A stretch of 64,000 bases of DNA from Caenorhabditis elegans (taxonomy: Eukaryota > Nematoda > Chromadorea > Rhabditida > Rhabditidae). The stretch covers positions 930,001 through 994,000 of the forward strand of contig NC_003281.10 in assembly GCF_000002985.6 (NCBI RefSeq). Direction: 5' to 3'. Below, one piece after another: positions 1-58,286 of the stretch (position 1 is its first letter; every line of letters begins with the position of its first letter). The notes beneath the pieces are model-generated. The model did no database searches and was not told the DNA's origin. It saw only the letters and a list, made by a program, of their open reading frames with translations. A program made the translations under genes and the position numbers.

Positions 1-1030
1 ATTTTTTATTTGAGCTGCGATAAAATTCCCATAATGTTTAATTGAAATAGAGAAATGAATGAAGATCAATTCGGCAAATACCTGACCTTTGCATTTCCCG
101 TATTATGTTATTTCTTTTTAAACATACGTAAAATGTAACTTATGTGATTATTGTTTTCAAAAATGAAATACTGAGAAACGACCAAGTCAACGGTATAGGG
201 TATAGGGTAAGAGCAGGGTACATGACAAAGGGAAAGGTCGGATTATAATTGTATTTTTATATGGTAGGGTAGCGTGAAATAAAAGTAAGAAATAAATGCT
301 CATAAAAACTCATGAAAGGTCTAGTTGAATGTATTCCTACTATTGGAACATCAACAAGAACGAAAATATGTAATTCAAACTAGATTTGATAATCTACAAA
401 ACCACATGAAGACAGACATCTTTCTCACTGTCGATCACATTATGAATGAAAACACAAGTTACAACGGGAAAATAAGAATAAAAAGAAAATAAGAAGGAAA
501 GATAGATCAGCAGTGAGCAGTGCCGCCAACTGTTTTATGGAACCTCGTGAGTATTGGTTTGAGGAGACGAATGGATGCCACAGACACAAGACAATAAACA
601 CCGACTTACTGCTACCAAATGTTTGGAAACTTCTCTGAAAAGGAAAACAAGATAATTTTTTTGAAGTGAAACATAACAAAAAAATCCACTCACAGGTGGT
701 TCACCACCTATAAGAAATCATCAAGAAAGGAAACTTTCACCTTATTTGAATTGTATAAATAACAACAATATAGAAATTAATTTTAAAAAAGCGCGCAAAA
801 ATGTATATCTCGGTTTTGCAAATAAAAAAAAGAAAAAAATGTGTATTTGTATTCGTGACTTAGTAGGAAGTTAGTTTATATAAACCTATAAACTAAAGCT
901 GATTCAGCCAGCTTCTTGGTGCTTTGATGTGTAAAAAAAATTCGTGAACTTTTCGTGCACATTTCGTGAACTTTGAACTATGTTTCATGGCATTTTACTG
1001 AATTAAATGTGAGACAAAAACTGAAAAATG
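1..1030. other. intergenic, no gene recognised
   Basis: AT-rich sequence with several poly-A/T runs. The only long open frame, on the minus strand at 440-679, is low-complexity and hydrophobic. It has no splice context or recognisable motif, so I treat it as chance. Confidence 0.6.
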
Positions 1031-1105
1031 TTCGACGAAAAATAAAATGTTAGACGAAAATTAAAATAATAGACGAAAAAGAAAATGTTAGACAAAAAAT
1101 AAAAT
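1031..1105. repeat. short tandem repeat, about 19 bp unit
   Basis: Four or so imperfect copies of a unit built on GACGAAAAATAAAATGTTA sit immediately upstream of a different tandem repeat, the first of three unrelated arrays in a row. Confidence 0.7.
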
Positions 1106-1110
1106 GGTGG

Positions 1111-1245
1111 CGGCCAGAGTCACTTCTTATGGTGAACGGCCAGAGTCACTATATTTGGTGAACGGCCAGAGTCACTTCTTATGGTGAACGGCCAGAGTCA
1201 CTAATTTTGGTGAACGGCCAGAGTCACTAATTTTGGTGAGCGGCC
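1111..1245. repeat. tandem repeat, 26 bp unit
   Basis: Five copies of a 26-bp unit start at 1111 and share the core CGGCCAGAGTCACT. The centre varies (TCTTAT, ATATTT, AATTTT) and each ends GGTGAA or GGTGAG. A truncated sixth copy runs straight into the next array. Confidence 0.9.
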
Positions 1246-1719
1246 AGCAACAGAGAGTAAAATATAGTGGGAAGCCACAGAGAGTAAAATATAGTGGGAA
1301 GCCACAGAGAGTAAAATATAGTGAGAAGCCACAGAGAGTAAAATATAGTGGGAAGCCACAGAGAGTAAAATATAGTGGGAAGCCACAGAGAGTAAAATAT
1401 AGTGAGAAGCCACAGAGAGTAAAATATATTGGGAAGCCACAGAGAGTAAAATATAGTGGGAAGCCACAGAGAGTAAAATATAGTGGGAAGCCAGAGAGAG
1501 TAAAATATAGTGGGAAGCCAGAGAGAGTAAAATATAGTGGGAAGCTAGAGAGAGTTAAATATGGTGAGAAGCCACAGAGAGTAAAATATAGTGGGAAGCC
1601 AGAGAGAGTAAAATATGGTGAGAAGCCACAGAGAGTAAAATATAGTGGGAAGCCACAGAGATTAAAATATATAGTGGGAAGCCAGAGAGAGTAAAATATA
1701 GTGGGAAGCCACAGAGAGT
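1246..1719. repeat. tandem repeat, 27 bp unit, about 17 copies
   Basis: Near-perfect repetition of a 27-bp unit with core CACAGAGAGTAAAATATAG. Variants are AGAG for ACAG, GAGAAG for GGGAAG and one 2-bp insertion near 1670. Because 27 is a multiple of three, the array gives repetitive open frames on both strands. These have no independent support as genes. Confidence 0.95.
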
Positions 1720-1730
1720 TCGAGAAAGAA

Positions 1731-1838
1731 TTCGAGAAAATTCTGGAATGTTCTAGAAGCTTCTGAAAAATTCGAGAAAATTCTGGAATGTTCTAGAACC
1801 TTCTGGAAAATTCGAGAAAATTCGTGAAATTTCTGGAA
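1731..1838. promoter_or_regulatory. heat-shock-element array
   Basis: From 1731 the sequence alternates TTC and GAA every 5 bp without a phase slip: TTCgaGAAaaTTCtgGAAtgTTC and so on to GAA at 1836-1838. That is about 22 alternating pentamers; only the one at 1766-1768 (AAA) deviates. HSF trimers bind three inverted nGAAn pentamers, so this could hold several trimers. Whether it drives transcription here is inferred; no gene start is obvious within 1 kb. Confidence 0.85.
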
Positions 1839-1976
1839 TTGTTGTGGTGAGACCTATCGTGCTGAGACCCATTGTGGTGAGACCCATAAAAATTTGAGCG
1901 GGAAATTCAAAATTTATGAGAACATTTTTTTGAGGGAAATTCAAGTTTTCTGAAAAACTATTTTTGTTTTAGTTCC

Positions 1977-2030
1977 TTCTGGAAGTTTCAAGAACTGGAA
2001 AATTCGGGAAAATTCTGAAATGTTCTAGAA
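1977..2030. promoter_or_regulatory. second heat-shock-element cluster
   Basis: TTC and GAA triplets at 1977, 1982, 1987 and 1992 keep 5-bp phase. After a phase slip the pattern resumes at 2003, 2008, 2013, 2023 and 2028, with AAA at 2018. It is shorter and less perfect than the array at 1731-1838 and lies about 140 bp downstream of it. Confidence 0.7.
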
Positions 2031-2344
2031 CCCCTGTAGGACTTTTTCTTTGTTTTGCTACAGCAATGTTCAAAGAACTTAGTAATTAATTATTCAGACT
2101 TCTCCAGTTAAGAAAAGTTTTTAAGTTATTTAAAAAAAATATAGCTCTGTAAAATTTTTTCGAAAGCCTGATAATGACAATGTGTAAGAAAAACCAGAAA
2201 ATTCTAATTGTCTCTGTGAGTTTTCTGAATCGTATACCATGGAAAGTGAAAATGCGATTTCATCGATAAAGTGCCGACTTTATTTTGATGAGGCATTTGT
2301 GAATGATTAAAAGGGCATCTATGCGTTTTACATTTTAAACTCCG

Positions 2345-2383
2345 CCAGTCGTTGGCCGCGCCGGAGGCGCGGTCATCGGCTGG
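2345..2383. repeat. GC-rich palindrome (possible Helitron-type 3' end)
   Basis: CCGCGCC (2356-2362) and GGCGCGG (2366-2372) form a 7-bp stem with a 3-nt loop. Outer arms at 2345-2354 and 2374-2383 match at 8 of 10 positions. The palindrome ends in CTGG followed by T. A hairpin close to CTRR before a T is the known form of Helitron 3' ends, but no 5' end was found, so this reading is tentative. Confidence 0.45.
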
Positions 2384-3584: not shown

Positions 3585-6067
3585 TCACAATCTTTTCACA
3601 TTCAATTTAAAATGGTTTTTATTCAGATACTGCAAATCTTCAAGAAAAATACCGAATTTGTCGTTACCATTTGAATATTCGATATTAAATTCATTGCCAT
3701 AGTCCGATTTAAATACTTTTGCAATTTCCATCGGATTTATTTTTGAACTGACAAAATATATCGTGCAACTTTGGAATGTACTTCTTCTCAAAAGATCCTG
3801 CAAAAAAGATAATTAAATGAAAAACAAGGTTGTCTTACATCTCTTATTTGTATCGCGGTATGTGCTGAAAATTCGTCCAATTTGTAAATATAAAAGCATT
3901 TGAAATGGAAAAAATGGACAATGGCATTCGTACACTCAACTCTACGACTATTAATGCTAAATTCTTCAGCATTTTTCCAATGCTCCAAATGGATTATTCT
4001 TTCGAATTGGTCAATTGACTTTATCCCATCTAATTCAATACTTTTGAGCACTTTAGCATCAAACCATGAAAGAATCGTAAGGACTTCATCAAATGAAAAG
4101 TAACTAAGTTCTATTTGCTGCACGTGAATACATTTTTCGGCTTTGAAAATCTTAATGAAAGTTGTAACAATGTCGCATCTGTTTTCCGTAAAGTTCCGAA
4201 TTGCAATTTTCCGTGCGTGCTTCGATAATATCTTAAAATCCTTGGCCGCTTTTTCCACAAAGTTTTCTCCGTCAATCAACTTTGTCTGTTCATTGTGGAT
4301 CACATTCGAACTCGAACTGTCATTTTCTGCTGTATTATATATGATTTCAGTTCCACTCCATATTTCGACTTCATCTTTCCTCAAGTACAAATAGATGTAG
4401 TCAAAACGTAATCCAATTTTATCGACAGCAGTTCTCAAACTGCGACAGACTTTTCTCGCTCTCAGTCTGTAATATCAGGTTGTCCCATAAGTTTTTGTAC
4501 TATTTTTTTTTTGAAAAAAATTTATTTCTCTCAAGCGACAAGTAGTACTATTCACACAAGTATTCACCATTAGTGTCCACCACTTGTTGCCATTTACTAG
4601 GTAACATCATGATGCCACGGGAGAAGAAATCCGGCGAACGCGATGAGAAGAAAGTGGAGAGTTCAGTTTTGAGATGCTCTTCGTCGTCGAATTGCTTGTC
4701 GCGCATGTAGTCACTGAGAGACAAGAACAAATGGTAGTCGGTTGGTGCGAGATCTGGAGAATATGGTGGATGCGGTAAAACAGTCCAACCAAGATCTTGC
4801 AGCTTTTGGAAAGTCTTCTTGGCGACATGAGGCCTAGCATTATCGTGAAGAAAATATAGTTTTTCATATTTTCCGTTGGTCTTTTCTGCAACTCGGTCCA
4901 ATTGGGCACAATAGTAATCAGCAGTGATAGTTTTATTAGTTGGCAACAATTCCCAGTGCACGGGTCCTTGAACACCCCACCAGACACAGATCATAATCTT
5001 TTTTGGGTGAAGATCAGGCTTTGGCGTCGGTATTCCTTTCTCACCGATCGGAAGCCATTGACGTTTTCTGGAATGGTTAACATAGAGCACCCACTTCTCA
5101 TCTCCAGTAACCAGATTGTTCAGCCAATCGAACTTTCGACGAAAAGTTAGAAGTTGAGTACAAACGTTGACCCGAGTGAGCTTCTGTGATGCCGAAAGTT
5201 CATGAGGCACCCAAATTCCAAGTTTTGAAGTAAAACCAAGGCGACCCAAGTGACGTGCAATTGTGCTATGACAACACTCAAGCTTCTCTTCCATTTCACG
5301 AAGACTAAGACGAGGCTCTTCCTCCACCAGCTTCACTAGGTCTTCTTCATTTAACTCTACCGGTCGCCCAGAACGTTCTATTTCTTCGAGACTGAAGTCG
5401 CCGTTCTTGAACTTTTGAAACCAACTCTTTGCTGTATTATAAGAGAGTGCTCCCTCACCTATCGCACCGCATATGTTTCGTTCCGCTTCCATTGCTGAAT
5501 GACCAAGACGAAATTCATAAAGAAGAAGCAATCTAACGTCTCGACGTTCAAGTTTGATGATTGTCATCGTGGCAAAGTAGAAATGGATGAAATGAATCTT
5601 TTCTGAAAGGGGACGACCCGACCTTGACACGACCTACGATGAAAAAATTTTAAAACTTTCTAGAAGTTTTGGAAAAATATTTGAAAAAAAGTACAAAAAC
5701 TTATGGGACAACCTGATAAATAAATCTTATTTGAGTGTGGCTATGAAGTTACTTTTTAGAAAATCTCCTCTATTGATATTTTAGCTTGGAATGCAAAACA
5801 AGCCTTTTTTGAAATCGGAATGAATAGAATTGTGCCAAAGAACAAATATTTCTTAAATTCTGCGCAGCACATTTAATGTTTAATTGTACTTTTACAAAGG
5901 AAATACGACACTTTGAATGGTTCTAATTTTGGAACACTCGGAAAAATAACTAACCGATCCATGGTCTCCATCTTTTCCAAAACTAGATTAGCGATATTTA
6001 AAGGCATATTGAGAAAAGTTGGCAATACCAGATTTTTCTGATGTGTCTTCGGCGCGATATCGGTCAT
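3585..6067 (-). CDS. F-box/FTH (fbxa-type) protein, intact, mariner in intron 1
   Basis: Exons are 6067-5955, 4466-3839 and 3797-3585, giving 317 residues. Exon 1 encodes the F-box (about residues 13-37), which in this family binds the SKP1-like subunit of SCF ubiquitin ligases. Exons 2 and 3 encode the FTH (DUF38) domain that probably recognises the substrate, including the hallmark LEHWKNAEEF and, in exon 3, LLRRSTFQSC then PMEIAKVF. The start was chosen because a TTTTTCAG acceptor (likely SL trans-splice site) lies 12 bp upstream and paralogues start at the same place. Intron 1 is 1488 bp because a mariner sits in it, ending 8 bp from the acceptor. The substrate is unknown. Confidence 0.85.
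4475..5716 (-). mobile_element. complete mariner element with 27-bp TIRs
   Basis: Perfect 27-bp terminal inverted repeats starting TCAGGTTGTCCCATAAG lie at 4475-4501 and 5690-5716. They are flanked by TA on both sides (4473-4474 and 5717-5718), the expected target duplication. The element is 1242 bp and carries an uninterrupted transposase. It lies in the same orientation as the host F-box gene, inside its first intron. Confidence 0.95.
4548..5567 (-). CDS. mariner transposase, intact DD34D
   Basis: An uninterrupted reading frame starts at the Met at 5567, giving 339 residues, the usual size for mariner. The frame also extends upstream to 5630, which would add 21 residues. An N-terminal helix-turn-helix region (around SYNTAKSWFQKF, with the linker RSGRP) should bind the inverted repeats. 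The catalytic core has TGDEKW, LHDNARPH and SPDLAPTDYHLF. In numbering from the upstream Met, D177, D263 and D298 match the DD34D spacing exactly (34 residues between the last two). It cuts and pastes the element at TA sites. With intact TIRs the element may be autonomous, although activity cannot be judged from sequence. Confidence 0.95.
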   Translation of the reverse strand: MTIIKLERRDVRLLLLYEFRLGHSAMEAERNICGAIGEGALSYNTAKSWFQKFKNGDFSLEEIERSGRPVELNEEDLVKLVEEEPRLSLREMEEKLECCHSTIARHLGRLGFTSKLGIWVPHELSASQKLTRVNVCTQLLTFRRKFDWLNNLVTGDEKWVLYVNHSRKRQWLPIGEKGIPTPKPDLHPKKIMICVWWGVQGPVHWELLPTNKTITADYYCAQLDRVAEKTNGKYEKLYFLHDNARPHVAKKTFQKLQDLGWTVLPHPPYSPDLAPTDYHLFLSLSDYMRDKQFDDEEHLKTELSTFFSSRSPDFFSRGIMMLPSKWQQVVDTNGEYLCE

Positions 6068-6273
6068 TTTAGAAAGTTCCTGAAAAACTAAAAATTTGGT
6101 CAGATATGTTTGAAGATTGGAAAATTGAATCAAGAAATTAAGAAATTCAAGTTAACAAGAAAAAATATTGAAAATGAAATGAAAACCAAGTCAAATTGTG
6201 ATGCGGCTGTCATTTACAGGAATAAAAAAGTGTTTCGAAAGAAATTTGACTGGTTGTGACAGTTTGAAATACT

Positions 6274-7310: not shown

Positions 7311-7974
7311 ATCTCTTATTTGTATCGCGGTTTGTTCTGGAAATTCGTCAACCTGGTGAATATTGAAACATTTGAAATGGAAAAAATATACAATCATTGT
7401 ACTGGCAATCGTACACTTAAGACTATTAATTCTAAATACTTCTGCATTCCCTCATTAATCCAAATGGATTATTCTTTTGAATTGGTCAATTGACTTCACC
7501 CATTCCAATTTAATAGTTTTGAGTTCTTTAGCATTAAAACGTGGAAGATTCGTAAGAACATCATCAAGAGATAAGTTCCATAATTTTACATCCTTCACGA
7601 GAATACATGTTTCGAATTTCAAAAACTCATTCAAAGTTGTAACAATGTTGTCATCATTTGAATTGAAAATTTCAATTTTCTGTGCGTGCTTCGATACTAT
7701 TTTAAAATCCTTGCCCGCTCTTTCCACAAAGTTTTCTCCATCGATTAACTTTTCATGTCCATTGTGAATCATGTTCGTACTGCCATTTGCTGCTTCAGTA
7801 TATCTGATGTATTCGTATTGAGACATAAATACATCTTCAATCTCTTCAACGTCAATTCCATTCCAACATATATTGACTACATCTTTCCCCAAGATCAAAC
7901 CGATGCAACCAAAATGTATTCCAAATTTGTCGACAGCAGTTCTCAAACTGCGACAGACTTTTCTCGCTCTCAGT
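7311..7974 (-). pseudogene. F-box/FTH pseudogene (exon 2 only)
   Basis: The FTH-encoding exon 2 is bounded by a good acceptor (at 7974) and donor (at 7311). Where intact copies read HLEQWKNAE, two adjacent codons have become TAA and TGA (7452-7457); the frame then continues normally to IQIRD. Exon 3 has been almost entirely deleted: only its last few codons survive near 7235-7270, joined directly to intron sequence. No F-box exon is found upstream. The exon also carries an extra acidic stretch (around VEEIEDVF) that its paralogues lack. Confidence 0.85.
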
Positions 7975-8384
7975 CTGTAACAAATACATGTTCATTTCAG
8001 AGTAGCAATGATGTTACTTTTGGAAAATTTCCTCTATTGGTGTCTTATGCAATACGAGCATTTTTTGAAAACGGATTACCTAAATATAATTATGCCAAAG
8101 ATTAATTATTTTTTTCAAAATTTATTTAAAATCTGCCCATCAAAACTGGGAGAGGGGAATTAAGAAGATGACTTTCAGCAATACAATACAAAAATATTGA
8201 AAATCATTGTGGCCTGGGATTTTTTAGTCCACGGCCACCCGGTTTGTTTCCCGATCGATGCACCTTTTTTTTATTTGAGTCACAAGTAGGAGACAATAAG
8301 AAAGGGGGAAAATATAACAGAGTGGAGAATAAGAAAAGGATGAAACAATGTTGGAAGATAGCTTGGGGTTTGACGATAAAATGT

Positions 8385-8404: not shown

Positions 8405-8641
8405 TTCTTTTATACTCCTGCCCCCGGAGCCCGAGGATCTGTGAGTTGCCAAAAGCTGCGGCCGACGCCTCGCGGGTCTGTGCGCAAAAGTCTTGTGGCC
8501 ACACGTGGCGTCAGGCTGTCTCATTACAGTTTGATCTACAAAAAATGCGGGAATATTTTTCCAAAAAATTGTGACGTCAGCAAGTTCTTAGCCATAGGCA
8601 CTTACTAGCCATAAACTTTGCCAAATTCAAATCAATTTCAG

Positions 8642-9437
8642 ACTCGTCACCCGAAAAGTGTGCCAAAGCCTCAGAACCGCAGTTGATCGCACTGAAATTC
8701 GAATACACTGCTGCTACTGCTGCAGAAAATGAAAGTACAACTATATCATGCAATGGACAATATAAGACCATCAACGGAGAAAACTATAGGAAAATCGCTT
8801 TTCAGGACCTGGAAACCGTACTAAAACATGCTTCACGGCTCCGCTTATGCCTAGTTGGAGCTCGCCGCATGGTCACCTCTTTTATAAACGCTTTGAAAGC
8901 CAAAAAGTGCGTTCACGTGAAGAAATTAGAGCTTGTGTATTGCTCAGCCACAGAGATTCTCGGAATTTTGCCGTGGCTTGATGTTCAAGTTCTCGAGCAG
9001 ATTCAGTTGTCGGATACTGAAATAAGCAATCAACTTGAGAGGTTTGCTCATCTGGAGCAATGGAAAAATGCAAAAATATTCAAACTATCCGAGTCTCTGT
9101 TTTCCTGCAAACGAATTGAATATCTGTTTCACTTCGAACAGTTTTCCATCAAAGTTTCCGATTTTCCAATAGAAATTGCAATTAAAATTCGAGATGTAAG
9201 TTTTAACTCTGTGTGTTTTTTCTATCTAAATCTGTAAAATTTCAGGATCTCTTGACAAGAAGTAAATTCCAGAAATGCAAGATCACATTTAAAGGATCAA
9301 AGTCAGATCCGGTTGAGCTTGCAAAAATGTTTCAGTATGCTGGTTATAAAGAGTTTTCCATAGAATTTCGAAATTATTCAAATGTTCCCCAGGAATGGGG
9401 GCTTTTTATCGAGAGATTGAAAAATTGTGAAGCTTGA
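8642..9437 (+). pseudogene. F-box/FTH gene fragment, frameshifted
   Basis: Exon 2 (8642-9195) begins after a TTTCAG acceptor and reads RKVCQSLRTAVD. It then loses about 25 codons and changes frame near 8685; from there the FTH domain runs cleanly to IKIRD. Exon 3 (9246-9437) is intact, with LLTRSKFQKC and PVELAKMF. No F-box exon is visible in the 500 bp upstream. The deletion removes the strand region that follows the conserved RTAVD motif, so I call this a pseudogene, though an alternative upstream exon could restore frame. Confidence 0.75.
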
Positions 9438-20881: not shown

Positions 20882-22055
20882 ATGTCTACTTTGCTGGATA
20901 TGCCTGTAGAAATAGGCAAACTAGTTTTGAAACGCATGAAGCCCGTGGAACGGTGAATTTTTTCAGTGGGTTTTCAAAAATACATAAATAGAAGTTTAGG
21001 AAGCCTCACGGACTCTCTCTCTACTTTCTTGTTCCCTTTAAGCCTAAGCCTAACTTAAGCTTCAGTCCAAGCCCGAGCTAAGCCTAAGTCTAAGCCTAAG
21101 CCTAAGCCCGAATTTAAGCCTAAGCATAAGCCTAATCCTGAGCCTAAGCCTAAGGCTAAGCCTGTAGTTTTCAAATAATTTTTTATAATTTCAGACTGGT
21201 CTGCCGAAAAGTGTGTAGAAGCTTGAGAACCGCGGTGGACAGTTTTGGAATTCGCTTCAATAGTGTTTCAGTGGATTTGTATGATGATTATGTTTTAATG
21301 GACTTGAACGGATTAAGCATCAAATACAAAAGTGAAGAAAATGGGACCTCTGCTGTATATTGCAATGGGAAACGTATTGCCAGGGAAGAAGATTATTTGA
21401 AAGTAGCGTTCGAGGATTTAATGGCAGTAATGGACCAAACCTCACAATTGTGCTTCAGAAACAAAAGAAAAGAGCTTCTCAACAGCATAACCTCCGTTAC
21501 AGACATTTTGAAAAATAAAGAAAATCTCTGCGTGAAGGAAATATTACTTAACACATTTTCATTTGATGATGCCTTGCTTATTCTTCCGTGTTTCAATGCT
21601 CAAGTCCTGGAAAGTATCGAGTTATGGGAAGCTGCTCCGATTGACCATTGTGAACGGCTCACCGGCTTGGACCAGTGGAAAAATGCGAAACGTTTCCGAA
21701 CTCACGATTCTCGGTTCCAGAATGAAAAATTGCAAATTGGACAGTTGTTTCATTTTGAAAAGTTTCAAGTCGAATTTGATAATTTCTCAATTCTAGACGT
21801 TACGAAAGTCAAAGAGGTAAGTTTTTAAGTTTTAAGTTTTGAAAAAAAATTGACTTTCAGGATCTCTTGAAAAGAAGCGAATTCAAAGAATGCTCTCTCA
21901 TAATTGGTAGGTTCGATTCAACGCCGTTCAAAATTGCACAATTATTCAAGCCGGATGTTGCTGAAGACATGAAATATGAAATCAAATATTCCGTGGATAA
22001 TAAAATATTCGTGATTTTTATTAATAGACAAGTGTTCTGCTGTGAGCTTATGTAA
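20882..22055 (+). CDS. F-box/FTH (fbxa-type) protein, intact
   Basis: Exons are 20882-20952, 21195-21816 and 21861-22055, giving 295 residues. Exon 1 is short: MSTLLDMPVEIGKLVLKRM is the F-box, starting almost at the N-terminus. A TTTGCAG acceptor lies about 13 bp upstream of the ATG. Exon 2 has KVCRSLRTAVDSFG and LDQWKNAKRF; exon 3 has LLKRSEFKEC and PFKIAQLFKPD. Intron 1 holds degenerate TTAGGC repeats. It is divergently arranged with the gene at 19363-20498 and in tandem with 22544-23803, with which it shares the short first exon and repeat-bearing intron. Confidence 0.85.
21038..21168. repeat. interstitial TTAGGC-type repeats in intron
   Basis: Many degenerate GCCTAA units, mostly AAGCCT, fill intron 1 of the F-box gene at 20882-22055. 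TTAGGC is the nematode telomere repeat. Confidence 0.9.
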
Positions 22056-22543: not shown

Positions 22544-23803
22544 ATGCCTGAATTGTTGGATATGCCTTTGGCATTGGTTAACCAAATTCTGGAAAAGTTG
22601 GATCCCGAGGACCTGTGAGTTGTTTAATCTATTTTTCTGTAGTTTTCGGAAGCTTCACAAAATCTTTCTACTTTAAAAAAACTTTTAGTAATTGATTTTA
22701 TTTCTTTAGAAGTTCGAGCCCCGTGGGCCAGGCTAAGCCTAAGCCTAGGTCTTAAAGGGGGCTTAGGTAAGCCTAGGCTTAGGCCTAAGCTTGAGCATAA
22801 ACCTAAGCCTAAGCCTAGGTCGAAGCCTAAGCTTACGCCTAGGCCTAAGCCTAAGCCTAAGTGTAAGCCTGAGCCTAAGACTAAACTTATAATTCCAGAC
22901 TGGCATCCCGTAAAGTGTGCCAAAAATTGAGAACCGCTGTCGATAAATTTGGGATTCATTTTAACGCGATCGAAGTCATTTGTACCGTGGACAATATTTT
23001 AATGAAACTGAACGAAAGCCTCATCACATACACCAATGCGAGCAAAAGTGGTACTACTGTAACTTACGAGTGTCGCCGAAAAACTATAGGAAATGAAGAT
23101 TTCACAAGCAGAGCTTTTAAGGATTTGGAAATAATATTGGAGCAAGTACCGAAATTTACTTTTCGAATTGAACTCTACGATTCGAAAAGAAAAAACCAGA
23201 AAAATATGACCAAATTTATCACTTCATTTATAAACTTTTTGAAGGCAAAGGACTGTATTCACGTTAAGGAAATACATTTCAACAGGCTTTTGTTCGATGA
23301 TATTCTCTCAATTCTTCCATTCTTCAATGCTAAAGTATTGGAAAATATCAAGTTATCGGAAACTGATAATCTGAAAAAATTTGAACGACTCGCTTGCTTG
23401 GAGCAGTGGAAAAACGCGAAAACATTTGAAACTCCTTGGGTCCTGGTTCATAATTGTCAAATTCCAATTGAACAATTATTTCACCTGGAGAGGTTCAAAA
23501 TCGTCATAGATGACTTTTTCAAACAAAATAGAATTGATATCAGGGATGTAAGTTATCGTTTGTATTTATTTATCTAATTTTCAATTCGCATGTTCAAATT
23601 ATTTTTAGGATTTACTGCAAAGGAGTACATTCCGGAAATGCGAAATTTTGTTTGAAAAATCGAATTCGACGCCATTTGAAATTGCTAAATTGTTCAAGCC
23701 TGACGTTTCTAAAAGTGACAACTATGAAGTTGAGTTTTCAATAGGCGGCAAAATGTTCAGAATTATTTCTTCTACAAATTGTTTTTTGTGTGAGATTTTG
23801 TGA
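22544..23803 (+). CDS. F-box/FTH (fbxa-type) protein, intact
   Basis: Exons are 22544-22614, 22899-23547 and 23609-23803, giving 304 residues. Exon 1 (MPELLDMPLALVNQILEKLD) is the F-box. Exon 2 carries KVCQKLRTAVDKFG and CLEQWKNAKTF. Exon 3 has LLQRSTFRKC, PFEIAKLFKPD and the ending CEIL. An AATTCCAG acceptor lies 13 bp before the ATG, consistent with trans-splicing. Exon 2 is 27 bp longer than in its upstream neighbour owing to a lysine-rich insertion (around DSKRKNQKN). Intron 1 is filled with TTAGGC-type repeats and a further block follows the stop codon. Confidence 0.85.
22728..22890. repeat. interstitial TTAGGC-type repeats in intron
   Basis: GCCTAA and TTAGGC units in mixed orientation occupy intron 1 of the F-box gene at 22544-23803, in the same position as in its upstream paralogue. 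Confidence 0.9.
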
Positions 23804-23834: not shown

Positions 23835-23993
23835 CAAAGCCTGGTAGTAAGTCTAAGCCTAAGCCTGGTAGTAAGCCTAAGCCTAAGCTTTAGCATGAAC
23901 GTAAGCCTAAGCCTTAGCATAAAAGTAAGCCTAAGCCTAAGCCTGGTAGTAAACCTAAGCTTTAGCCTTAGCATGAAAGTAAGCCTAAATCCC
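23835..23993. repeat. interstitial TTAGGC-type repeats, 3' flank
   Basis: GCCTAA units alternate with GGTAGTAA and GCATGAAAGTAA spacers just downstream of the F-box gene at 22544-23803. Confidence 0.85.
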
Positions 23994-44749: not shown

Positions 44750-44940
44750 TAAGCCTAAGCCTAAGCCTACGCCTAAATCTAAGCCAAAGCCTGAGCCAAA
44801 GCCTGAGCCAAAGCCTAAACCAAAGCCTAAGTCAAAGCCCAAGCCTAAGCCTAAGCTTAAGCCTAAGCCTAAGCCAAAGCCCAAGCCTAAGCCAAAACTT
44901 AAGCCTAACCCTCTTAAAAATCTACAAGAAGGTTTTTCCC
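44750..44940. repeat. interstitial TTAGGC-type repeats in intron
   Basis: About 30 degenerate AAGCCTAAGCCT and AAGCCAAAGCCT units in intron 5 of the gene at 43311-49588. A second block lies at 45048-45085 and a third at 45690-45808. Glycine/leucine-rich frames on the minus strand are by-products of these repeats. Confidence 0.9.
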
Positions 44941-45085
44941 TGCGCTTGGAGCGCAAAAGAAAAGAAAAAGGTTATTTAGACTAAGGCACAACCCCAATTT
45001 GGATAAATCATTTGAAATCCCCAATCCAACAAGCCCAAGGACAAGGACAAGCCCAAGCCTAAGCCTAAGCTTAAGCCTAAACCTA

Positions 45086-45688
45086 ACTAGGGAATGGTGT
45101 TACCCCTGCAATCGCTAGGAGGACAAAACAAAGTGAAAATGGAAGATCAGATCTATGGCTACAAGAATCAGTTTTTGAAATCTGCTAAACTCGGTCCCAA
45201 AGCTGAAATTTTCGGTCTTAAAAAGTAGTCCTCTTTTTGCTCAAAATGCCGTTTTTCGTGTGTAGAAGTGGCTACATAAAAGTTTGGCACTGCAGCCGCC
45301 GTTCGAATGGCCGATTGGTGAACTCTCGTGCTCATTAATCTAAAGGTCACGGGTTCGTTCCCCACTAGGTATTAATTTTTTTTTGAATTTTTCCTCTAGC
45401 ATGAAATATGCACAAAAACACGGTTTCTTCCGTTTTTTGGTAACTTCGGAATAAATTTTTTGGTTCCTGGGAATCATAAAAGTAATTTGGAAACTTTTTG
45501 GAAGTTTTCTTTTTTTGATAAATTTTCACTTTTCTCCCACCTGATGTATGCACATTTTTAAAAAATTTCAGCTTTGGGACCGAGTTTAGCAGATTCCAAA
45601 AACTGATTCTTGTAGCCATAGATCTGATCTTCCATTTTCACTTTGTTTTGTCCTCCTAGCGATTGCAGGGGTAACACCATTCCCTAGT
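45086..45688. mobile_element. foldback element with about 126-bp inverted arms
   Basis: The left arm (45086-45211) and right arm (45563-45688) are near-perfect inverted copies, starting ACTAGGGAATGGTGTTACCC. I noticed one mismatch. The 350-bp loop contains a tRNA-like stretch. TTAGGC-type repeats abut both arms, so the element inserted into, or arose within, an interstitial telomere-like tract. Confidence 0.85.
45303..45368 (+). other. tRNA-like sequence inside the foldback loop
   Basis: A-box-like TGGCCGATTGGTGAAC, a CTCATTAATCTAAAGG segment resembling the anticodon arm of tRNA-Met (CAT), and B-box-like GGGTTCGTTCCC occur in the right order and spacing. The acceptor and T stems do not pair well, so this is not a functional tRNA gene. 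Confidence 0.5.
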
Positions 45689-48600
45689 AAGTCTAAGCCT
45701 GAACCTGTGTACAAGTCTAAGTCAAAGTATAAGCCTAGGCCTAAGCCTAAGCCTAAGCCAAAGCTTAAGCCTGAACGTGAGCCTAAGCCTAAACCTAAAC
45801 CCAGCCAAGCTCTCAATTGAATAATTTTTTAAAGCATTACCTGTGATCTTTAGAGTGATTTTTGACAAGATCCGACACTGCGGGTGTTTTCTTAGCAAGC
45901 ACTTTCATCTTGTTCGCGTAAATGATGTTATAAAATGTTGCTCCAAAATCGTTTTCCAAACGCTTTGCAGTACTTTGCACCCGATATAAACGATCACTAA
46001 GATATTTTCGAACAGCAGATATTGGTGGGATGAATGCCGAGTCTGTGGAAAACAGTGTGAATTAAAAATATTTCAGAATACAAAAAATTGAGCTTACTGT
46101 CGATTTCTTGATCACCGGACTGCGTGTTTAAATTGACAAAGTCAATATCCTTTAGTGCAGGCTCTCTTTTCCAAAAAAAAAAATGCAATCACAGCAACAG
46201 GCACTGCAACAATTAAAAAAGATGCAACGCCGATGATGATATAGGACCAAGGTGAACTTCTGAAACATATAATAACTGATGAAAGACTAATAATCACAAA
46301 TCAACTCACTTTTCCAAGAAACTCAATTCCTTTGTTGGAGAAGATCCAGGGGATCTGGGAGATTGACTTCCTTTCTGACCTTGAAGCTTAGACGTGGCTT
46401 TGCTGTACGCAGTGAAAGATGTGTCCAGTGCTTGCAAGGACTTGGCAGAGTCATCGAAAGCTTTGGAGAACTTGGCGGAATCATAGATTTGAAGAGATCT
46501 CAGAAGGCTCAAGAGTGTGTCGAGTTGGGATGCTGATGCTGATCTTCTTCTTCTTGTCGACAGGCGATCCTTCAACTTTTCCACAGAACCAATGATAGCT
46601 GGCAAGTTGATTTTGATTCCCGGAACTTTTTTGGCATCTTGGAAGAATCCAGAATAATTAGAAAGTTTGAAGGATTTCACTGGTTTCACAGATTTCTTAA
46701 AATCTGAAATGGCCGTCTTGATCCTGTTCAACTCGTCCTCCAATCCATCCAGTGAATTCAAATTCTTGACATCTGATGGATTCAACTGATGCTTCTTCAT
46801 CTCTTCATCAATCACAGCTTTCAACTCCTTCACAATCTTCAAATCAACTGTCTGGCTACTCATCATCTGCATATTCGTGATTCCACGTGTTGCCATTCCA
46901 ACCACTTGTGATCCTACAGAAATGTTAGTGAATGTTGACAATGCTTCAGTTTCCATATGCTTTGAAGTTTTGATTCCTTTGATGTAGTCTCCTAGTACTT
47001 TGAGAGTGCTTTTTAGTTTTGGCAAATGACCTATTAAAGTACTCAGATCAACTTTTTTGAATAATTTTGGATCTCTATAGTCTCTGATGACTTCAATAAC
47101 TGGCTTCAATGAATCAATCCCCTTGATATTCTCCAAAAACTTTATGTCATCTAGGAAACTTTTCAAGTCGTCAACAAAAGTAGTAAGGTTACCAAAACTC
47201 GTTTGGATTTTTGTGACTGTTTCCGTAATAGTTGGCGCTTCTTTCAATTTTTGGGCAGCTTTCTTGGCAGGTAGAATCAACTTGTAGATGTCTTTGAAAT
47301 CCGAACTTTTCTTAAATAATTCAAGTTTTCCTTCAGCTGCAGTCGTTATGTTTTTCATCTTCTCCAATTTGATCGTGTTCTTTGCAGATCGTAAAGTTTT
47401 TGAAAGGTGGACCAAAATTTCAAGAGCAGCGAGCTTCGAAGAAAGCAACTTCATTTTATCAATAAGTTGACCGATGACGTCAATCGCAGGAATCCTGATT
47501 GCAGATTGAGGAATCTCAATACCTGTGACAGTCCCAATCAAAGGCCTTACAATAACAGTGAGATCCTTAAGACTGTTGACTTTCTGATACAGGTTAGACA
47601 CATCCTTGAAAATCTTTTCCTCGACCGGCACAATCGATAGATCAACCTGCTGTGCATTGTTCCCCAAAGTCTTCAATTGATTCAAGGCCTTTCCCAGATT
47701 GTAAGCTTGTCCATCAACTGTCTTATTCACCCATTCATTCTTCAAGTCAGTAAAGATCATTTGAATATCTGAGATTCCATTTAACAATCCTGAGATTATC
47801 TTGAAATTAACCGATTTTTTAAGACTTCGAGACAAGAATAACTCATGAAGTTGTGAGATCATCGGAGCTTCTGGTTTTATTTTTTCAGCCAGTGTGTTCA
47901 ACTTATTGATGTTTTCTTGGACTTGGGGTAGGAGAGAACCATCTAGACTGTTTTTATATGGGAAAAACTCAGCCACTGCTTTGTAGACTAAATTGAGGGA
48001 AGGATAGGAAATGTGAATGTTTCGGAGATGCTGATTTTGTGCGTAAACATTATATTCTTCCAAAGTCCAATCTTTGAATTTTGGTAAATGAGGCGCCATG
48101 TCACTTAATTTGATATTAGCGTCATCATCACTGGTCACTCCTTCCATACTTTCCATTTCGTTTAGAAAAATAACAATTCCTTTTGCAAAAGAATCTACTT
48201 TGCTCCATTTTATCTTCAATGCATCAAGTTGAGTCTTGTATACATCGTCTTTAGGAATAATGCTCCCTGGGACCACACCCTTAGTCTTCTCATAAACAGA
48301 CGCAAACATCATAAGCTGTTCCTCAAGCTGCTCACTACTCGAATCTAATTTCCTTTGGAGCCCATTAATCCCATCAACAATCTCAGTTAACTTATCAGTA
48401 GTGATTGCAGATATTTGAGTAGGAGTGATAGTTCCAAAATGAAGTAATTCAGGGATTAGATCATCAAAAGTGATAGTTCCATTGGAGAGTCCATATTGCA
48501 TAGAAATACCAGTTGTAATACGAGAAATCATTTGCATTTGGTTGAGTGAAGACGAGAACTCGTCTGAAAAAAAATCAATAACTATTATAGTGGAAACATT

Positions 48601-52568: not shown

Positions 52569-53235
52569 ACTTTAAAGGCGCACAACTCCGCGCAGATTAG
52601 AGATAGCTGAAAATTGTCAACTAACAAAATGTGTACCTTGAAATTTTAAACAAGTTTTTTTTTTAAATTTTTATACCACTTTTTTCCTCGGAGCTATGCG
52701 CCTTTAAAGTTGGGCGCACCTCCCCTTCGTGGTTCTCCCTGGGGTCGTCAACTTTAAAGGCGCATAACTTTGTACAAAACAGAGATATATAAAAATTGCT
52801 AACTAATAAAATATTTATCTTAACATTTTAAAGAATTTGTTAATTTTTAAAATTTTTTATACCTCTTTTTCCGCAAAGTTATGCGCCTTTAAAGTTAGGC
52901 GCGCCTCCCCCTCCACCTCTGAAGCCTCCAAATTTAAAGGCGCATATCTCCGCGGAGAGTAGAGATATCTAAAAATTGTTAACTGTCAGAATACTTATCT
53001 TGGAATTATAAACAAGTTACTATTTTTAAAATTTTTTTACCTCTATTTTCCGCGGAGTTACGCGCCTTTAAAGTTAGGCGCCATGCCCCCCTTCCCCTTA
53101 TGAAGCCTCCAACTTTAAAGGCGCATAACTCCACACAAAAGAATGCTATCAAAAACTTGTCAACTATCAAAATATTCATCTCGAAATTCTACGCATTTTG
53201 TTAGTACACAATTTTTTGATAGCTCTCAAATTCAA
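52569..53235. repeat. tandem repeat, 181 bp period, palindromic core
   Basis: Units start at 52569, 52751, 52931 and 53112 (spacings 182, 180, 181). Each begins ACTTTAAAGGCGCA and, about 135 bp on, carries the inverse TGCGCCTTTAAAGT. The fourth unit is cut short where the polypyrimidine tract and CAG acceptor of the TBC gene begin. Confidence 0.9.
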
Positions 53236-56200: not shown

Positions 56201-58286
56201 ACAGTGAATTTCGGCGAAAATATTTGAATTCGTAAATTTTTATAACAAAATTCGGATTCAGCTCCCCGAAATTACCCTAACACCAATATTTCAGCTCATT
56301 TGGAGCCAATGTCGTAAGATCTGGTGTATTAGGGTACGGTACTCCGTGTTTGCGTACTTTTGGGGCTACAGTACCCCTTGAAATTTCAAAATCAAGCTAG
56401 AGACTTTAAACAAAATAGTGTAAGACCAAAATTTTACGCTGAAGTCGAATTTATTAAGTTTTCTTATGAATGAATCCCAGATCCGCAGTGCATAGCGCTT
56501 GAAGAACGGATCGTCCTTTAATCCTTTAATCCTTTTTTTAATGTGTGTGAAACCAAAATTTTAAAAAATAGTTTTTTAGACAGCAAATTTCGGCGAAAAT
56601 ATTTGAATTCGTAAAATTTTATGACAAAATTCGGATTCAGCACCCCAAAATTAACCTAACACAAACATTTCAGCTCATTTCGAGCCAATGTCGTAAGGTA
56701 TGGTGTATTGGGGTACGGTAGTCGGTGATTGCGTACTTTTGGGGCTACAGTACCCCTTGAAATTTCAAAATCAAGCTAGAGACTTTAAACAAAATAGTGT
56801 AAGACCAAAATTTTACGCTGAAGTCGAATTTATTAAGTTTTCTTATGAATAATGTGTGTGAAACCAAACTTTTAGAAAATAGTTTTTTAGACAGCAAATT
56901 TCGGCGAAAATATTTGAATTCGTAAATTTTTATGACAAAATTCGGATTCAGCACCCCAAAATTAACCTAATACAAACATTTCAGCTCATTTCGAGCCAAT
57001 GTCGTAAGGTATGGTGTATTGGGGTACGGTAGCCGGTGATTGCGTACTTTTGGGGCTACAGTACCCCTGGAAATTTTAAAATTAAGCTAGAAACTTCTTC
57101 TCAAAAGTTTTAAAACCCAAATTTTGCGTTGAACTTGAATTTCACATTAACTTGAAGTTTTGAAACGTTTTTAGTCTAGAAAAATGTGAAAAAATTTCGC
57201 TCAAAATTTTTTTGTACAGATTTGCCGATTATCGATGTTTTTTTCTTGCAGAAAGCCAACGGAGTCGACCCAGCGTTATACATGATCGAGTGGTTTATGT
57301 GCTGCTTTTGCCGAACACTACCCTGGCCTACAGTACTCCGCGTATGGGACATGTTCCTGTGCGAGGGCGTCAAGATTCTGTTCAAAGTGGCGCTGGTGCT
57401 ACTGAAATTCGGAATTGGGACGCCGTCACAGATTAAACAGTACCCCGATATGCCTGCAATTGTGACCCGGTTACGGAATTTACCTGTAGAAATTATGGAG
57501 GAAGAGTTCTTGGTGCAAAAGGTGGGAAAATTTTGATTTTTGGAGAATTGGGCGAATTTTCATAAAAATGCAGCGTCAAATTCGAGTTCTACGCAAAATT
57601 TCAGTCTAGAATCTTTTTAGTAGATATTTCTAGCTTAATTTTGAAGTTTTGAGGGGTACTGTAGCCCCAAGAGTACGCAAACACCGACTACAGAACCCCA
57701 ATACATCAGATCTCACGATATTGGCTTCAAATAAGCTGAAAATTTTGGGTTGGGGTGATTTTACTATGCTGAGTTCGAATTTTTACATGAAAATAATAAA
57801 AACAAATTAGCCACACTTTCAGAAACCGAATTTTTTTCAGAAAACAAATATAATGTACGTTCAAAATAAAATAGCAAAATAAATATTGTGAAATTCGATT
57901 TCTACGCAAAATTTCATGCTAAAATTATTTTAGTAGAGCTTTCTATCTTCATTTTGAAGTTTGGAGGGGTACTGTAGCCCCAAGAGTACGCAACCACCGG
58001 CTACCGTACCCCAACACACCAGATCCTACGACATTGGCTCCAAATGACCGGAAACTTGCGGGTTAGGGCAATTTTAAGGTGCTGAACTCGAATTTCATAC
58101 TTAAAACCCTGAAAAAATCCTAGTTTTAGCAACAAAATAATTAAAATTTTGAAAGAAAAATTTTTTCGAATTTTTTTGTTGAATATTTGAAATATTTTTA
58201 AGATCTCCGAAACCAATCTAAACGACGCGGATATGGAAAAACTTCATTTTGGAGCCATGAAAACCCGACAAATGAGATTTGACTGA
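53261..58286 (+). CDS. tbc-10: TBC-domain Rab GTPase-activating protein, TBC1D10 group
   Basis: Exons are 53261-53416, 53463-53701, 54284-54500, 55132-55247, 55444-55699, 57252-57521 and 58203-58286, giving 445 residues in consistent phase. The N-terminal third is acidic and likely flexible. The TBC domain starts near [20 protein letters not shown]; the arginine finger is R225 in IQKDLSR and the glutamine finger Q265 in [24 protein letters not shown] and [11 protein letters not shown] are typical of TBC1D10/EPI64. It stimulates GTP hydrolysis by Rab proteins and so turns off membrane-traffic signals. The start follows a TTTTTCTTCCAG acceptor. The C-terminus is short; further exons or isoforms cannot be excluded. 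The symbol rests on the TBC1D10 match and memory. Confidence 0.88.
53730..58130. repeat. about ten copies of a 250-bp dispersed repeat in TBC introns
   Basis: The core is GCTCATTTGGAGCCAATGTC, then GATCTGGTGTATTGGGGTACGG and TTTGCGTACTTT in sequence. It occurs in forward orientation near 53780, 54090, 56290, 56680 and 56990, and inverted near 54680, 54980, 55920, 57690 and 58000. All lie in introns and both orientations occur within single introns. Confidence 0.85.

Follow-up and report, generated by a model that had tools for sequence, protein, structure and literature searches.

Helitrons start with TC, end with CTRR just after a short hairpin, and insert between A and T. An array of heat shock elements (HSEs) is defined by at least three nGAAn/nTTCn pentamers that alternate and keep the same phase. 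The HelitronY4_CE transposon of C. elegans contains a 15-bp repeat, CCATCGTGG(T/C)GAGAC, and a 40-bp HSE repeat (PMC4039745); one copy has a published start at I:7868158 (PMC4595182), and a satellite at III:8344363 is listed as part of this element (PMC9918286). Helitron1_CE is an autonomous, Rep-helicase-encoding element with HSEs, and its induction depends on HSF-1 (PMC6765114). Furthermore, six Helitron-linked satellite families have been described, one of which has a 40-bp unit built on the palindromic decamer AGAANNTTCT (PMC4595182).

Helitrons hold 11,527 of the 18,766 genomic HSEs and cover 1.7% of the genome, and HSF-1 binds five Helitron types, HelitronY4_CE among them, with stronger binding on heat shock (PMC6927752). 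According to the same source, both HSF-1 and Pol II rise on heat shock at Helitron HSEs, and three genes with Helitron HSEs show a weaker heat induction in isolates without the insertion. The first-pass annotation of the locus under study had mentioned reports of HSEs in Caenorhabditis Helitrons, and for C. elegans this is published (PMC6927752). The scattering of HSF-1 sites by Helitrons is a published case of transposons rewiring a stress response.

The window is a stretch of 64,000 bases (bases 930001-994000 of contig 3), and the genome searches covered 100,286,401 bases in seven contigs. Close to the left end of the window, an HSE array lies between satellites and a conserved tail:

1001-1106, plus strand: 19-bp satellite, not of the Helitron family (tandem-repeat scan)
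1104-1247, plus strand: 26-bp satellite, not of the Helitron family (tandem-repeat scan)
1246-1719, plus strand: 27-bp satellite in 17.5 copies, directly adjoining the HSE array; outside the Helitron family
1719-1838, plus strand: HSE array, a 10-bp/40-bp tandem repeat of alternating TTC and GAA (read directly; tandem-repeat scan)
1839-2383, plus strand: conserved Helitron 3′ tail, 545 bases (genome sequence matches)
1844-1887, plus strand: 15-bp tandem repeat, GTGGTGAGACCCATC (tandem-repeat scan; PMC4039745)
1900-1966, plus strand: 34-bp tandem repeat, two copies, within the conserved tail (tandem-repeat scan)
1977-2030, plus strand: second, looser HSE cluster, within the tail that aligns with paralogous copies (triplet scoring)
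2345-2383, plus strand: 3′-terminal palindrome, i.e. a hairpin ending in CTGG (2380-2383), followed by T at 2384

Between 1731 and 1838, the expected TTC or GAA is found at 21 of 22 triplet positions with an exact spacing of 5 bp, so that the run is an HSE array in the above sense. The only deviation is a change from GAA to AAA at 1766, and the first-pass reading of about 22 alternating triplets with one deviation was correct. The boundaries 1731-1838 that it gave are accurate for the phased run, but the array itself starts slightly earlier: its onset is read near 1719, the phase slips by 2 bases ahead of 1731, and the 40-bp period spans 1724-1838 in the tandem-repeat scan. The second cluster that had been reported at 1977-2030 is real, though looser, with four of four triplets at 1977-1994 and five of six at 2003-2030. 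When 1691-2090 was masked, the best phased run elsewhere in the window reached 5/22. The motif TTCNNGAANNTTCNNGAA has 36 matches in the window at ≤2 mismatches, compared to 11.2 expected, and 14 of these fall within 1731-2030. A literature search under RcS5, which we take to be an older name of the HSE-bearing repeat, retrieved nothing on the repeat.

The tail (1839-2383) matches at least seven other genomic places at 92-96% identity, in the following called close copies, and these matches run from tail base 1, 3 or 4 through the last base. At least 12 further places match at 77-80% identity, beginning at tail base 50-76 and continuing through its end. Right ends were inspected for 15 loci; besides the window copy, these comprised 14 out of 29 further tail loci that were retrieved. 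All 15 have CTGG at the same base of the palindrome and T thereafter, and the flanks beyond are unrelated; a tail relative outside this set, at C4:10265382, ends in CTGC. The 27-base 3′ end occurs at 122 genomic places with ≤2 mismatches (62 forward and 60 reverse), compared to none for its reversed control at the same threshold. A shared 3′ end at 122 places together with differing flanks at the 15 inspected loci characterizes a family of dispersed copies. The first-pass annotation had pointed to the palindrome with its CTGG|T end, and this structure is indeed present: the hairpin has a folding energy of −18.1 kcal/mol (z −4.88), the mean for shuffles of the 45-base stretch that was folded being −9.2 kcal/mol. 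The window copy thus has a 3′ end of the Helitron type, with CTRR after a short hairpin.

To the left of the tail, 4.4 kb ending at the tail were examined for the seven close copies. Their layout is, from 5′ to 3′, a short 5′ end, a 123-bp minisatellite (present in six of the seven), a 40-bp HSE minisatellite, and the tail. Five of them, plus L025, a shorter relative, start with the 5′ end A|TCATTACC, and the A precedes the TC start in all six copies that have this 5′ end. Of the remaining two close copies, one has altered first bases and one is without a detectable 5′ motif. The five close copies for which both ends were found are 1,043-1,768 bases long and appear to be short non-autonomous elements. 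When single misses were allowed, the best phased runs of the close copies were 75/79, 27/28, 34/36, 28/28, 24/25, 40/41, and 24/24. The window copy therefore has the shortest best phased run of the eight copies compared. Its array had been described as far longer than a typical HSE, which holds in comparison with the promoters of heat-shock genes, e.g. hsp-70 with two HSEs (PMC6927752), but not in comparison with its own repeat family.

Genomic copies without phased pentamers had been named in the first-pass annotation as an argument against its proposal of an HSE-carrying Helitron. None was found among the seven close copies, which have phased runs of at least 24 triplets each, and 28 of the 29 tail loci retrieved besides the window copy have an array match; the exception is L022, for which there is no HSE-array match within the examined stretch. 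Many Helitron copies are described as being without HSEs (PMC6927752). Short-period tandem repeats are common in the window, and the phased triplets could thus be taken as a simple satellite that matches HSEs by chance and has no connection with either HSF-1 or a transposon. However, the best phased run in 50 simulated first-order Markov windows was 7/22, as opposed to the 21/22 observed, and each of the seven close copies has a homologous array ahead of this same tail with its terminus, so that the probability of a chance satellite is practically nil.

We conclude that the region of about 1719-2383 is almost certainly the 3′ part of a non-autonomous element of the HelitronY4_CE kind, which has lost its 5′ end and its 5′ half. 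The proposal of an HSE-carrying Helitron as the source of the array was thereby confirmed, because the published type is matched by the tail, the CTGG|T end, the hairpin, and both the 15-bp and the 40-bp repeat. Like HelitronY4_CE (PMC4039745, PMC4595182, PMC6927752), the window copy has both repeat periods, and the order of an HSE array followed by a tail with a terminal hairpin and the CTGG|T end is also shared. GTGGTGAGACCCATC is a rotation of the 15-bp repeat published as part of HelitronY4_CE, and the 40-bp unit of the window copy is a variant form that differs from the unit printed in PMC4039745. Two genomic positions support the assignment to the Y4 kind. First, the 5′ end TCATTACC is found with one mismatch at C1:7868163, and the published HelitronY4_CE start is only about 5 bases away. 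Second, the 3′ end is found with two mismatches at C3:8344960, about 600 bases from the HelitronY4_CE satellite on chromosome III mentioned above. The subfamily name Y4, as opposed to Y1 or Y1A, rests on the published repeat descriptions. In contrast to HelitronY4_CE, the window copy lacks both the 5′ terminus and the 123-bp minisatellite found in the close copies, and its array is shorter and abuts unrelated satellites.

Two other described systems share single features with the window copy. Helitron1_CE (PMC6765114) also has HSE arrays inside a Helitron, and the satellite at II:14993697, which is listed under Helitron1_CE, lies about 0.8 kb from the tail-matching copy at C2:14994530. In contrast, contig 3 contains no Rep domain match; the 13 genome-wide profile matches are spread over six places on C2 and a single place on C6. 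Cele_Fam_7_40 is a Helitron-linked satellite built, like the window unit, on the palindromic decamer AGAANNTTCT, but it is a satellite classification only, and the term “heat shock” does not occur in the main text of the respective publication (PMC4595182).

The 5′ TC terminus of the family has no match at ≤3 mismatches across the whole window, and the 123-bp minisatellite is likewise missing. The window copy is thus a fragment, which lowers the case for a complete element, but not for derivation from a Helitron. Of the A and T that would flank an insertion, the truncated window copy shows the T after its 3′ end. The 5′ motif was not found in the close copy at C4:17155988 either, so that its absence is not peculiar to the window copy. 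The 5′ half may have been lost via deletion or via recombination with satellite DNA that was already in place.

The three tandem repeats to the left of the array were found as the first-pass annotation had described them. The junction between the 27-bp satellite and the HSE array has one genomic occurrence at ≤3 mismatches, and the 27-, 26-, and 19-bp repeats all occur elsewhere in the genome on their own. We inspected about 1.5 kb on each side of these satellite loci, some of which was that satellite itself. The loci comprised 14 for the 27-bp satellite in six arrays, 19 for the 26-bp satellite in two arrays, and seven for the 19-bp satellite in four arrays, and none of them had a tail, HSE array, or 5′ end within the inspected stretch. 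In addition, the three satellites are missing from all seven close copies in the stretches examined. The stretch 400-1110 has 16 other genome matches; 14 are within its 19-bp repeat part, and the remaining two, at C4:11887210 and C4:11888237, are short. The 19-bp and 26-bp satellites occur together also at C6:13306420-13306606 (L083), and therefore their origins may be linked.

Sequence capture is known from Helitrons elsewhere, and the satellites directly abut the HSE array, so that the whole block of 1001-2383 could be envisaged as one composite Helitron that captured the three satellites as cargo and moved together with them. This is very unlikely in view of the single junction in the genome, the 14, 19, and seven satellite loci devoid of Helitron sequence, and the lack of satellites in the close copies; we thus set aside a composite element that includes the satellites. 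A variant, namely that one event joined the three satellite families to the 3′ end of the Helitron and gave rise to a composite, appears extremely unlikely. If true, the composite could be mobilised in the future from the intact 3′ end, and the satellites would be spread together with the HSF-1 array. The satellites occurring alone elsewhere and the junction occurring once in the genome indicate that the block of 1031-2383 is most likely a junction of two things and not one element. The first-pass view of this block as a Helitron was therefore correct for about 1719-2383 only, and it did not hold for the satellites. The satellite junction looks like a rearrangement at a single locus.

With regard to the origin of its regularity, the phased TTC/GAA run represents the 40-bp minisatellite of the element itself, i.e. 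a chain of overlapping heat shock elements, and its regularity most likely arose by tandem duplication of the 40-bp unit, which itself comprises eight pentamers. For a conservation test, we aligned 60 units of the 40-bp repeat from the eight copies. Over all letters, the TTC/GAA core has 0.051 differences per site and the spacer 0.066, which is not a significantly better conservation of the core (p = 0.14), and selection on the triplets was consequently rejected. Looser cut-offs, giving 62 and 67 units, resulted in p values of 0.14 and 0.40, respectively. The two letters behave in opposite ways, with the core being better kept for A (0.006 vs. 0.061 in the spacer) and worse kept for T (0.065 vs. 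0.021). Moreover, shifting the core mask by one base yielded a larger contrast than the true register.

The nearest recognisable gene to the right of the array encodes an FTH domain and is located on the minus strand at about 3585-6151, its exon chain being a prediction. The frames 3788-4474 and 3585-3812, both on the minus strand, score above the Pfam cut-off for the FTH domain, and the F-box match of the frame 5873-6151 is below the cut-off. The 3′ side of this gene faces the array at a distance of about 1.5 kb. To the left, the three reading frames scanned (440-874 of the window) have no Pfam match at E values up to 0.1. No promoter was found beside the array, considering the nearest right-hand gene and the three left-hand frames. 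Selective maintenance of the array as an enhancer that makes a nearby gene respond to heat shock would be compatible with the near-perfect phase of 21/22 and with the low variation of core A. However, core and spacer vary about equally over all letters, core T varies more than spacer T, the shifted mask yields the larger contrast, the FTH-domain gene turns its 3′ side to the array, and the left-hand frames are without a Pfam domain. An enhancer role under selection is therefore highly unlikely, and a regulatory role of the array in general is less likely than its binding by HSF-1. From the type of element, HSF-1 would be expected to bind the window copy on heat shock.

The finding is already known in kind, because both the HelitronY4_CE repeats (PMC4039745) and Helitron-linked satellites (PMC4595182) have been published. 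The array is a remnant of a common, published HSE-carrying Helitron and therefore a real but ordinary feature; the published family accounts for each of the striking features, and the satellite junction is the only unusual point. What the window copy adds is a truncated, satellite-flanked example, which can serve as a comparison HSE array with no promoter identified adjacent to it.

Several other features were observed in the window. A mariner-type transposon at 4473-5718 has 35-bp terminal inverted repeats that are 97% complementary and TA at both ends. It contains an uninterrupted frame of 361 codons on the minus strand (4548-5633) with the Pfam domains Transposase_1 and HTH_48, adjoins the frame 3788-4474, and apparently lies within the FTH-domain gene. 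Between 3585 and 9237, FTH-domain frames are found on both strands (3788-4474 and 7455-7991, minus; 8575-9237, plus), which probably form a local F-box/FTH gene cluster. TAAGCC, the complement of the nematode telomere repeat, forms six degenerate arrays, located at 21039-21163, 22768-22884, 23848-23988, 44750-44912, 45049-45086, and 45730-45798. PMC4595182 mentions that C. elegans has interspersed telomere repeats. Two tandem repeats have long periods, i.e. 181 bp with 3.4 copies at 52569-53188, and 311 bp with 1.9 copies and 92% matches at 56539-57142.
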